Made by a program: the position numbers and the translations under genes. Positions 24,886 to 29,071 of a stretch of 42,367 bases of DNA are shown here, piece after piece (within the stretch, counting starts at the first letter, position 1; each line of letters begins with the position of its first letter). The stretch is from Pirellulales bacterium (GTDB lineage Bacteria > Planctomycetota > Planctomycetia > Pirellulales > Thermoguttaceae). The stretch lies in contig JAFGTN010000407.1 of the NCBI GenBank assembly GCA_016934075.1, positions 1 to 42,367 of the forward strand, read 5' to 3'. The notes below the pieces were generated by a model that did no database searches, was not told the DNA's origin, and saw nothing but the letters and a program-made list of their open reading frames with translations.

Positions 24886-24923
24886 AATGCCTGAAGGTAG
24901 GCCGGGCGAAATAGCTTGTTGAT

Positions 24924-24975
24924 TTGTGGTGCGGCCATCTTGGCTGCTCAAGCAGGCTGGAAGCCTGCACCACAA
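24924..24975. repeat. Short palindromic REP-like element
   Basis: TTGTGGTGC ... CAGGCTGGAAGCCTG ... GCACCACAA: nested inverted repeats in the intergenic region. Confidence 0.65.
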
Positions 24976-25198
24976 GATCTAAACGCTGGATTACAACCAG
25001 GCCCACTGATTGACTTGGGGATGGTTTTTCGACAAGTTCTCCCCATAATCCGGGTGGTGTTGCTGGCGACTCATAAATCGGATAGAATAGGCATAATGTA
25101 GCGAATTTTCATGGGTAAGTTACGGGCTCATATGCCGGTTTGGGGTGGGAAAACCCGCCATAGATACACATCTCGGAAATAACACAGAGGGTCAGGTC

Positions 25199-28100
25199 AT
25201 GCGGGAGCGGTTATTTGAGTTAGGACACCTTGTGTTGTGGCGGAAGCGTTCGCGACAGAAAAAATTCCGGCATATGGCCATGCTTCGAGGAGAGGTGTTT
25301 GCCCGTCGGTTAAGGTGCGAGCCGCTGGAAGATCGTCGCATGCTCAGCGTAACGGGTTCGAGCGAATCCTTATCTAGCGATGCTTTACAGATGTTCCATA
25401 CGCAAGACGCGCTATTCGCCGAAAACGCCGGCCAGTGGGCAGCCGATAATGTCTACTTCGGCTACAACAAGGGCGGCACGCAGATCTATTTTACGGACGA
25501 TTCGATAGAGTTTGGTTTATCTCGTGGGCCGGAAAAAGGGGACTGGTACAATTTGTGTGCAGCACCCGAAGGGCCTTCCAGGCAAATTGTACCTGTCCCC
25601 TTTTTTGGTGACTACGATGACGCGAGTGGCAAAAGTGTTGTTTTCAGCCGCACGGCCGACGGAGTCTACACCGTTGGAGTTCAAGTGGTCGACGACGATG
25701 TAGCTTATGACATGCACAGCACTACCGTGACGGTCTATAATGTTGCACCCACGGCTCATGCCGGAGGACCATACGTGGCTGACCAAGGGGGAACTATAAC
25801 ACTAATTGCCGCCGGTTCAACCGATCCCGGCAACGATATTGCATCGTACCAATGGGATTTCGACGGTGACGGACAATTCAACGATGCGTCAGGTATTAGT
25901 GTCGCCTTTAGTAGTACCGTTCCCGGTGAGAATGTCGTAAGCGTCTTGGTGACAGATGACGACGGGGGGTATGATGCGTGCGATGCCATAGTCACAGTCA
26001 ACAATACACCCCCTACGGCGGAGATCTTATCAAACGCAAGCATCGCTGCTAATGAAACTGTCTTCTCGGTGAACTACTCGGATATCAACGCCCTCTCCAC
26101 GGCAACAATCGGAGCAAACGACATCTTTGTAACCGGCCCAAACAGCTATAGCCGATACGCCGAGTTGATTAGCATTGACGACTACACCGATGGTTCACCG
26201 AGAATAGCCACGTACCGTGTCACCCCGCCCGGTAGTCTCTGGCGAGATGATGATTTCGGAGAGTATCAGATCACAATGGTTGCCGATCAGGTGTACGACA
26301 CTTCGGGCGCTTCAGTTCCAGCCGGATCACTAGGTATATTTTCTATCACAAGGACCGAAGACGACGAGTTAATAATTCAGGAGGATGATGCCCCCAATAT
26401 AATCCCTGCCGGCTATCTGGTGGATAATGACGTTAGCGTGGGGCCACTTATGGTCGACTCTGTCGAAGCAACATTTAACACGCACGGCACGGTGGACCTT
26501 GCTGGACAGACGGTTGTATATACACCGGATGCCAGTTTTAATGGCTGGGCAAGTTTTAATTACACGACTATTAACCAGTGGGGATATCGAAGCACAGGCA
26601 TTGTGACAGTTTTATGCCACTGTGCGATCACGGTCGACAATCTCGAAGACAATGTGGACCTGGACGGCCTCATAACCCTCCGCGAGGCCATCGAAGCCGC
26701 AAATAAAAATTTGTCCGTCGGCGACGCGACTGCCGGTTGGGATGGTTTGGATCGTATCGATTTCGATCCGTCACTCTTCGCCGACGGTCCGGGCACGATT
26801 GTGCTCGATGGATCGTCACTTGCTATTACCGAGGATCTTGAAATTCTAGGCCCCGGCGCAGACAAGCTAGTGATCGACGCCGACGGGCGTAGCAATGTGA
26901 TACGGATCATAAATGGCGTGACCGCCACGATCGACGGAGTCACAATAACCGGTGGCGCGGACAACAGCGGCGGCGGGATTTATAATAGCGGTATGCTTAC
27001 TGTTGCCAACTCGACGATCTCGGGCAATTCGGCAAATGACGGAGGCGGGATTACCATCTATGGGAATAGCAGCGACACGTCGCTGACGGTAATCGGCTCG
27101 ACTATCGCAGGCAACTCGGCGGATCGCGGCGGTGGGATTTACAATAATAGTCTGGGCGGCACGGCCACGCTTGCGATAACGGACTCGATTATCTCGGACA
27201 ATTCGGCCTACGAAGGTGGTGGGCTTTACAGCAACGTAGGATTCTATAGCAACAGTTTCGGCACGGCGACGATCATCGACTCGACTTTTTCGGAAAACTC
27301 GGCCATTAAAGATGGTGGAGGGATTCGCAACTATTCCGGCGAAATGACCATATCGAGTTCACGTTTCAACGGTAACTCGGCCGGCGAGGACGGCGGAGGG
27401 GTTCGCACGCATTACGGCACGATGCGGATCGAAAACTCCTCATTCTCGGGCAACTCGGCGGACGAAGGCGGAGGAATTTTCATCGGCGGTGGACTTTACA
27501 CCACGACTCCCAGTTATCCCGATCTGTTTATCACGAACTCCACTCTGACGGGCAACCTGGCAAGCAGCCGTGGCGGCGGAATTTTTACCTCCTGCAATCA
27601 TAGCTTCCCGACCACGACGCTTAATAACACTATTGTCGCTAAAAATACATCGCCCGATAGGCCGGACATCGCTTTCGAAGAAAATGGCACGATTACCGGT
27701 TCTTACAGTATCATCGGTGATGATTCAGACCAGAATGCTCTGATTAACGGTAGTGGCGGCAATATCGTGGGGACAACCGCAAGTCCGACCGATCCGCGGT
27801 TCTTGCGCGATGCGTGGGACGGGGGCGACGGCTGGCGGGATGATCCAGGCACGGCAAACATCGACGAATCGGCCAATAACGATTATGGCGATATGCGGAT
27901 CGAGATTGACAGCCCGGCCTTCGACGCGGGCAGTGATTCTTTGGCGGTAGATGCCGAAGGTAGTCCGTTGGCCAACGATTTGCTGGGCGGGTCGCGAATT
28001 CTTTTCACATGCGTCGATATTGGTGCGCATGAGTACGCTCCCCCGATAGATGTGCGTGCAATCGTCGTTACGGGACGAAGCGTGCTCGATACCGACGGCG

Positions 28101-29071
28101 AGAAAGACGTACTTCCGCCCGGGGCGGATTGGATCGACGAGTGGCAACCTTTTTTTGTGGAAATCTGGGTGGATACGCCCAGCACGGATCAACAAGGCGT
28201 ACCCTCGGCCTTGGTCGATTTACAGTATGATACCGGTTGCCATACGGCCACGGCCATCGAGTATGGGCCGGGGTTTGAAAGTAATCATTCCGGGACGATT
28301 GATGACAAAAGCGGCACGATCTCCGGTGTGGGGGCGGCGACCTCGCGGATGGATGTCGGCGACGACCGGTGGGCTTTGCTTGCCCGCGTGCGGTTCGAAC
28401 CCACGGCAAGTGATGCGGGAGTGCCGATTCATCTTGCGGGCGAGTATTTGGACGCGGTTGCATGCGGGATTGAATTGCAGTCGCCGCAGGATGGGTCGGC
28501 CGAGGCGGTACCCTGCATAATGCAGTTCGGGCCAGGGCCGCATACGCAATTGCGGGCCGTGCCCTACGATATGGATGACGACGGTACGGTCGGTTTGGCA
28601 GACTTGTCGTTCTTCGCATCGGTTTATGGCGAAAAGCCGGGCATTACCACCGACAGCCCATACGCCTATGCGGCCGACTTCAATCGATCGGGCACGATCG
28701 ACTTGGGCGACCTGGCTTTCTTCGCGAGCAACTATCGAAGTGCCCGGCCTAATACGGCGATCTCTTATCCGGTGGAGTTCAATGAATTGCCCCTGGCCAC
28801 TACCGCCGTGATACTATCCGCCGATAGTATCGGTACGTACGATAACGGCTCTACCGATTCCGACATTATGGCTGCTAAGTATAAATCGATGTCAAGCTTG
28901 TTCTGGACCAATGAGGATGCCAGCGTGGATAACTATCTGATCAATGGCGCCACTATTATGGCCTATCACTGGATAGATGTTGAGAACAGCAACGACGAGG
29001 ATGCCCGCGACGCGGTGTTTGCGGAAGTTGGGACGGAAGACAAGATGATGCTGTTGTTTGACGAAGTCTAA
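25199..29071 (+). CDS. Giant secreted protein: PKD-like domains, right-handed beta-helix repeats, dockerin type I
   Basis: N-terminal RCEPLEDRRMLSV motif typical of planctomycete exported proteins; PKD ASYQWDFDGDGQFNDASG; repeats NSTISGNSANDGGGI; dockerin YDMDDDGTVGLADLSFFASVYG...ADFNRSGTIDLGDLAFFASNY. Start at ATG 25199 preferred over GTG 25145. Confidence 0.9.
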   Translation: MRERLFELGHLVLWRKRSRQKKFRHMAMLRGEVFARRLRCEPLEDRRMLSVTGSSESLSSDALQMFHTQDALFAENAGQWAADNVYFGYNKGGTQIYFTDDSIEFGLSRGPEKGDWYNLCAAPEGPSRQIVPVPFFGDYDDASGKSVVFSRTADGVYTVGVQVVDDDVAYDMHSTTVTVYNVAPTAHAGGPYVADQGGTITLIAAGSTDPGNDIASYQWDFDGDGQFNDASGISVAFSSTVPGENVVSVLVTDDDGGYDACDAIVTVNNTPPTAEILSNASIAANETVFSVNYSDINALSTATIGANDIFVTGPNSYSRYAELISIDDYTDGSPRIATYRVTPPGSLWRDDDFGEYQITMVADQVYDTSGASVPAGSLGIFSITRTEDDELIIQEDDAPNIIPAGYLVDNDVSVGPLMVDSVEATFNTHGTVDLAGQTVVYTPDASFNGWASFNYTTINQWGYRSTGIVTVLCHCAITVDNLEDNVDLDGLITLREAIEAANKNLSVGDATAGWDGLDRIDFDPSLFADGPGTIVLDGSSLAITEDLEILGPGADKLVIDADGRSNVIRIINGVTATIDGVTITGGADNSGGGIYNSGMLTVANSTISGNSANDGGGITIYGNSSDTSLTVIGSTIAGNSADRGGGIYNNSLGGTATLAITDSIISDNSAYEGGGLYSNVGFYSNSFGTATIIDSTFSENSAIKDGGGIRNYSGEMTISSSRFNGNSAGEDGGGVRTHYGTMRIENSSFSGNSADEGGGIFIGGGLYTTTPSYPDLFITNSTLTGNLASSRGGGIFTSCNHSFPTTTLNNTIVAKNTSPDRPDIAFEENGTITGSYSIIGDDSDQNALINGSGGNIVGTTASPTDPRFLRDAWDGGDGWRDDPGTANIDESANNDYGDMRIEIDSPAFDAGSDSLAVDAEGSPLANDLLGGSRILFTCVDIGAHEYAPPIDVRAIVVTGRSVLDTDGEKDVLPPGADWIDEWQPFFVEIWVDTPSTDQQGVPSALVDLQYDTGCHTATAIEYGPGFESNHSGTIDDKSGTISGVGAATSRMDVGDDRWALLARVRFEPTASDAGVPIHLAGEYLDAVACGIELQSPQDGSAEAVPCIMQFGPGPHTQLRAVPYDMDDDGTVGLADLSFFASVYGEKPGITTDSPYAYAADFNRSGTIDLGDLAFFASNYRSARPNTAISYPVEFNELPLATTAVILSADSIGTYDNGSTDSDIMAAKYKSMSSLFWTNEDASVDNYLINGATIMAYHWIDVENSNDEDARDAVFAEVGTEDKMMLLFDEV
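25533..25605. repeat. REP-like palindrome embedded in frame within the giant CDS
   Basis: AAAAAGGGGACTGGTACAATTTG ... CAAATTGTACCTGTCCCCTTTTT: 23-nt arms with one mismatch around a 27-nt loop. Confidence 0.85.

Follow-up and report, generated by a model that had tools for sequence, protein, structure and literature searches.

A palindrome at a domain junction

How does a near-perfect DNA palindrome come to be translated in the middle of a secreted protein, at the very place where one domain stops and another resumes? The question is raised by a contig of a Pirellulales bacterium (GCA_016934075.1, JAFGTN010000407.1), of which the whole stretch of 42,367 nucleotides is referred to here as the window; it belongs to a MAG of 929 contigs that is 79% complete. 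The element is 73 bp long and is made of two arms of 23 nt each, complementary at 22 of 23 positions, with 27 nt between them (Table 1). It is the top-listed inverted repeat in the surrounding 3.5 kb and, as single-stranded DNA, is predicted to fold at -24.8 kcal/mol on the plus strand (z -6.4) and at -23.5 kcal/mol on the minus strand (z -7.0), with zero shuffles of either strand reaching so low an energy. An earlier note on this DNA had described a palindrome translated in frame, and both its exact position and its translation are borne out, since the element is stop-free within its ORF and reads (E)KGDWYNLCAAPEGPSRQIVPVPFF. A second repeat, unrelated to the first (TTGTGGTGCGGCC...GCCTGCACCACAA), lies in intergenic DNA upstream of the host ORF at 24915-24985 and has 44 matches in the same genome.

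Table 1. Features of the host gene and of the palindromic element in the window
Feature	Position	Strand	Remark
Host ORF, 1308-aa secreted protein	25145..29071	+	in-frame ATG at 25274
Planctomycete extracellular signal motif (CEPLEDRRMLS)	25304..25351	+	Pfam match below threshold
DUF7948 start, truncated	25376..25531	+	78% and 66% identical to two G026 homologs
Palindromic element (TIR dimer, REPIN-like)	25533..25605	+	translated EKGDWYNLCAAPEGPSRQIVPVPFF
Left arm (TIR), AAAAAGGGGACTGGTACAATTTG	25533..25555	+	resembles RAYT TIRs in relatives
Spacer, conserved	25556..25582	+	family consensus GTGCGAAGCACCCNNNGGGCCGTTCCGGC
Right arm (TIR), inverted copy, CAAATTGTACCTGTCCCCTTTTT	25583..25605	-	
PKD domain without its first half	25607..25741	+	PKD_4 positions 42-85
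Following PKD domain, near-complete	25739..25984	+	

The host protein carries PKD, Big_9 and PMP-like repeats and, as judged by eye, a dockerin-like C-terminus. It had been proposed that an 'ENAGQW' domain stops abruptly to the left of the element and that a PKD domain lacks its start to the right, and both observations hold. The 'ENAGQW' part aligns with the DUF7948 profile over its initial ~35 positions out of 214, a match that is weak by itself (E 0.007), and the PKD match on the 3' side, confined to the PKD_4 positions given in Table 1, is likewise weak by itself (E 0.015). That DUF7948 is truncated emerges far more clearly from two full-length homologs in a relative, G026, than from the profile match. 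These homologs resemble the N-terminus of the window protein over ~50 residues, at the identities given in Table 1, and continue with a full DUF7948 at the place of the element, followed by propeller repeats and a dockerin-like end; at the DNA level, divergence from the window starts within ~8 nt of the element. Conservation of the translated segment in homologs, which would have spoken against an insertion, is thus absent from these two proteins. On either side, the break in the window domain lies only a few nucleotides from the end of the element. Since DUF7948 stops at the element and PKD resumes in mid-domain, the element marks the junction of a deletion or a fusion.

A family of short repeats in related genomes

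The element is not unique to this locus, and uniqueness was one of the two findings that, by the earlier note, would have spoken against its reading. A DNA search of the same MAG returned more copies at 76-85% identity to the window element, an arm-spacer-arm pattern found eight strict copies and its reversed control none, and looser searches added diverged copies. The family unit is ~71-73 bp long and is composed of two inverted arms of ~21 nt around a conserved, GC-rich spacer of ~29 bp. Its pattern is present in 14 of 101 genomes of the same taxonomic family, the richest being G026 (62 copies), G058 (17) and G022 (12), and outside that family in one of 292 genomes of the phylum, as a 57-bp version; a search of Rfam with the element gave no match. 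Within a copy the two arms show a mean of ~0.3 differences, with 65 of 80 copies free of mismatches, whereas arms of different copies differ at 3.5 positions on average.

Two further observations concern G026. Many of its copies (L101-L113) have an extra conserved tail on one side, CCGCGGGCCGTGAACGGTTACG, with a small palindrome of its own. In addition, two tandem copies overlap and have one arm in common (contig C106, L106:8561-8681), an arrangement that copies would be expected to produce by recombining or slipping against each other.

RAYT genes with the same ends

The loci of Y1_Tnp (PF01797) genes were taken from element-rich genomes. In G026, G022 and G032, RAYT-type genes encoding ~230-240 aa have an arm of this kind on each side, the two being inverted relative to each other, so that the repeat unit is found there as the terminal inverted repeat (TIR) around a RAYT-like tyrosine transposase. 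The RAYTs of this clade match PF01797 and, by eye, have the HUH motif as NHWH and a tyrosine motif Y..VVRYVERN. Perfect inverted repeats of 19-26 bp surround 14 RAYT genes with at least 45% identity to the RAYT of G026, a set that includes some mutual orthologs, and begin ~55-70 bp upstream of the gene; nearly all contain a GGGGAC- or GGTGxC-type motif and a AAAAGGGGAC-like start, and the few RAYTs without such repeats are partial, at a contig end or not resolved. The repeat of the G026 RAYT, AAAAAAGGTGCCAGGCACC, includes the arm of the abundant element of G026 itself. Because the element and the RAYT genes have the same ends, Y1 (HUH, IS200-like) transposases of this RAYT/TIRYT clade probably mobilise the copies in trans.

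The motif GGGGWSAS is found in the TIRs, most arms carrying GGGGACAG or GGGGTCAG and the right arm of the window copy GGGGACAG; the left arm of the window copy, GGGGACTG, and the GGTGxCAG variants depart from the motif at one position. The arms begin with AAAAGG and neither end of the element has the GTAG that marks the foot of a classical REP hairpin, and this identity was therefore rejected. Hence, of the suggestion that the palindrome is a REP tied to RAYT transposases, the tie to RAYTs stands, through the arm-type TIRs in relatives, and the GTAG-REP type gives way to the TIR group with GGGGWSAS.

The earlier note had advised looking for a RAYT gene, and none of the matching clade was found in the assembled part of the window's own 79%-complete MAG. 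The Y1 genes of this genome (L010-L012) were rejected as a source, their arms not matching and L010 being flanked by other repeats. The L010 locus (contig C697, L010:1330-2470) contains an intact IS200-like transposase gene of 151 aa between repeated palindromes, AGCCCGAAGGGCT and AACCCCAACGGGGTT, which suggests that it forms another repeat system with them.

Copies inside genes and their empty sites

In the window's own genome, nine of ten long copies run in frame through gene-like ORFs; in G026, copies are apparently mostly outside genes. The hosts in the own genome include a lactonase, a 3-hydroxyacyl-CoA dehydrogenase, a sulfatase, a radical SAM protein and a CoA transferase, together with ORFs without a Pfam match. 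In relatives, the domains that hold or adjoin a copy belong to PdxA, UvrA, UvrD (two copies), HemD (two copies), biotin ligase, a histidine kinase, a PurF-like protein, TsaD, an FtsJ-like protein and an SNF2 helicase; by eye, a copy was also seen in an LpxK-like ORF. The Pfam domains of the hosts span or flank the inserts, and alignments to PDB chains are broken at the insert in PdxA (query 222/252 against chain 203/203) and likewise in TsaD. The UvrD and HemD genes of G058 each contain two in-frame copies. In the ECF sigma-factor-like genes of L064, L066 and L067, copies are located within the gene or at its very end.

All three frames are represented among the copies, which occur both in cytosolic enzymes unrelated to one another and between genes. 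Among 28 listed in-gene copies, some of them in orthologs, frame class a is used by 16, b by 9 and c by 3. A codon score, which is noisy, undercounts in-gene copies and serves as support only, placed the best flanking frames on the same strand in 38 copies, and the frame was shared across the element in 28 of these, compared with one third by chance. Moreover, 52 of 80 copies are stop-free in all six frames, as are 0.1% of composition shuffles, the copies being related rather than independent.

Empty sites are present in the congeners G004 and G040, the comparison with G004 covering part of the sites. The net insertion is a multiple of three at 12 of 13 sites, several of which are without a clean other allele, and at eight of the nine cleanest; the exception, L064, is an apparent frameshift in a sigma-factor-like gene. 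At clean sites the net insertion ranges from 67 to 90 bp, by which a fixed unit of 75 bp (25 codons) was rejected, and because the length varies in this way, the keeping of frame looks like selection. In-frame insertion with an empty site in relatives is thus documented for sister copies, the window copy standing outside this evidence.

Most copies have 2-5 complementary bases immediately outside the element. These short flanks are variable and complementary within each copy, yet are missing from clean empty sites, and a pre-existing palindromic target was rejected on this ground. At one site (L065), seen by eye, an additional left flank matches the target in reverse complement, hinting at templated copying of the target. 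The PdxA site has a decayed copy in G040 (L246), a copy in G058 (L065) and none in G004, which could reflect an insertion long ago that was subsequently lost, or else separate events.

Origin of the junction

Taken together, we consider it probable that the palindrome is a RAYT-associated mobile TIR dimer that resides in genes, and that in the window it joined parts of secreted proteins, most likely by recombination or by insertion and deletion. The window palindrome would be one copy of a miniature mobile element, REPIN- or MITE-like, built as a dimer of terminal inverted repeats about a conserved GC-rich spacer of ~29 bp, which inserts both within and between genes. Its copies would persist as protein inserts of ~24-30 residues because they are mostly stop-free and because, in a gene that is needed, an insertion lasts only if it keeps the frame. 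The window copy appears to sit inside a gene for a DUF7948-type secreted protein from which the rest of DUF7948 has gone, along with the start of the PKD domain. As the likeliest path, two in-frame copies would have recombined, or an insertion would have been accompanied by an adjacent deletion, with the frame left intact and parts of two secreted proteins fused. Recombination between copies is plausible, since the two in-frame copies in UvrD and in HemD of G058 represent an arrangement from which it could produce the structure seen in the window. The flanks of the window copy are complementary for 1 nt only, unlike those of most copies, as expected if they stem from different insertions; 0-1 complementary flank bases occur in 17 of 77 copies, and this asymmetry is not unique to the window. 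That the element bridges two truncated domains, as had been suggested, is thus upheld, and its part in causing the fusion or deletion is the probable reading of these breaks. No ortholog of the window gene was found, with or without the junction, from which the order and mechanism of the deletion might be read; a search from the PKD side likewise gave none, and a search for other genomes with the junction returned distant PKD matches only.

One may argue that the element simply inserted into a gene that was already truncated or naturally fused and did not cause the domain loss. Most examined copies of the family did insert without a large deletion, and DUF7948 proteins with Big_9/PKD-like regions are known (L196). 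Set against this are the breaks of both domains within a few nucleotides of the element and the lack of the mutual flank complementarity that is typical of insertions, and we regard such a simple insertion as unlikely. Still less likely is a misassembly in which two genes were joined at a repeat, their true forms lying elsewhere. A fragmented MAG with several copies of the element would invite such an error, and the junction is confirmed by no second genome. However, the reading frame is unbroken across both joins, and the orphaned remainder of DUF7948 was not found elsewhere in the assembly, in a search run without a positive control. Furthermore, no other copy in the MAG exceeds 85% identity to the window copy, a level that makes these copies poor bait for a misjoin. 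That the segment is a selected protein feature (a linker or processing site) or an RNA hairpin, palindromic by chance and not mobile, is very improbable, for despite the favoured reading frame noted above all three frames are used, unrelated cytosolic enzymes and intergenic DNA carry copies, empty sites exist and Rfam has no match.

The preferred reading, a mobile TIR dimer that helped to join two secreted-protein parts, can be extended tentatively. The family may be a gene-tolerant, RAYT-driven selfish element that is kept stop-free in six frames, encodes an innocuous peptide and spreads through coding DNA, including that of housekeeping enzymes, with direct in-frame copies serving as places of recombination from which new domain fusions, the window protein among them, arise; we hold this wider view to be possible, though rather less probable than not. 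Sister copies are in frame in many ordinary enzymes, and mobile DNA thus repeatedly becomes part of proteins. The case touches on how far genes tolerate translated mobile DNA and on whether small palindromic elements help to assemble multidomain proteins. It also carries a warning for annotation, as translated mobile DNA can account for runs like KGTGPICRNGPEG...LSPF in the proteins of planctomycetes.

Relation to known elements

The closest likeness is to TIRtrons, RAYT-like genes flanked by TIRs with GGGGWSAS, some of whose TIRs form dispersed dimer families, and many such TIR-flanked RAYT-like genes are reported from Rhodopirellula baltica (Di Nocera et al. 2013, PMC3733652). The GGGGACAG and GGGGTCAG arms described here fit the TIRtron motif, whereas many other arms are GGTGxCAG variants. 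In addition, both copies inside genes and empty sites are found here, and neither TIR families inside genes nor empty sites appear in the portion of PMC3733652 drawn on for this comparison.

REPINs are inverted REP doublets that are mostly extragenic (Bertels and Rainey 2011, PMC3116915). The family resembles them in having two short inverted palindromic units with a spacer, which form one hairpin and are matched to a RAYT, but differs in the many copies that lie in frame within genes; the REPs of P. fluorescens SBW25, by comparison, are extragenic almost without exception (PMC3116915). In its working we judge the family, from its sequence features, to be REPIN/MITE-like and best filed with TIR-dimer repeats.

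Palindromic DNA translated in frame in unrelated genes also has precedents. Rickettsia palindromic elements (RPEs) insert in frame, the first-described being ~150 bp long (reviewed in PMC10969869), and intragenic REP dimers that encode 20-30 aa are described in several species (in the portion of PMC3733652 drawn on), with published hosts that include uvrA and a UvrD/REP helicase (PMC3733652, in the same portion; PMC10969869). The family is like these in entering unrelated genes, UvrA and UvrD among them. In contrast to the Rickettsial RPEs of ~150 bp, the present unit measures 71-73 bp and is accompanied by a RAYT clade with matching ends. Thus, intragenic REPs (the RPEs of Rickettsia and those of Opitutus) and TIRtrons were known before, and the new findings are this family, the RAYT clade that goes with it and the evidence from empty sites. 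They bring mobile DNA together with a clade of matching transposases, with empty sites and with protein inserts in one case outside the hard-to-manipulate Rickettsia.
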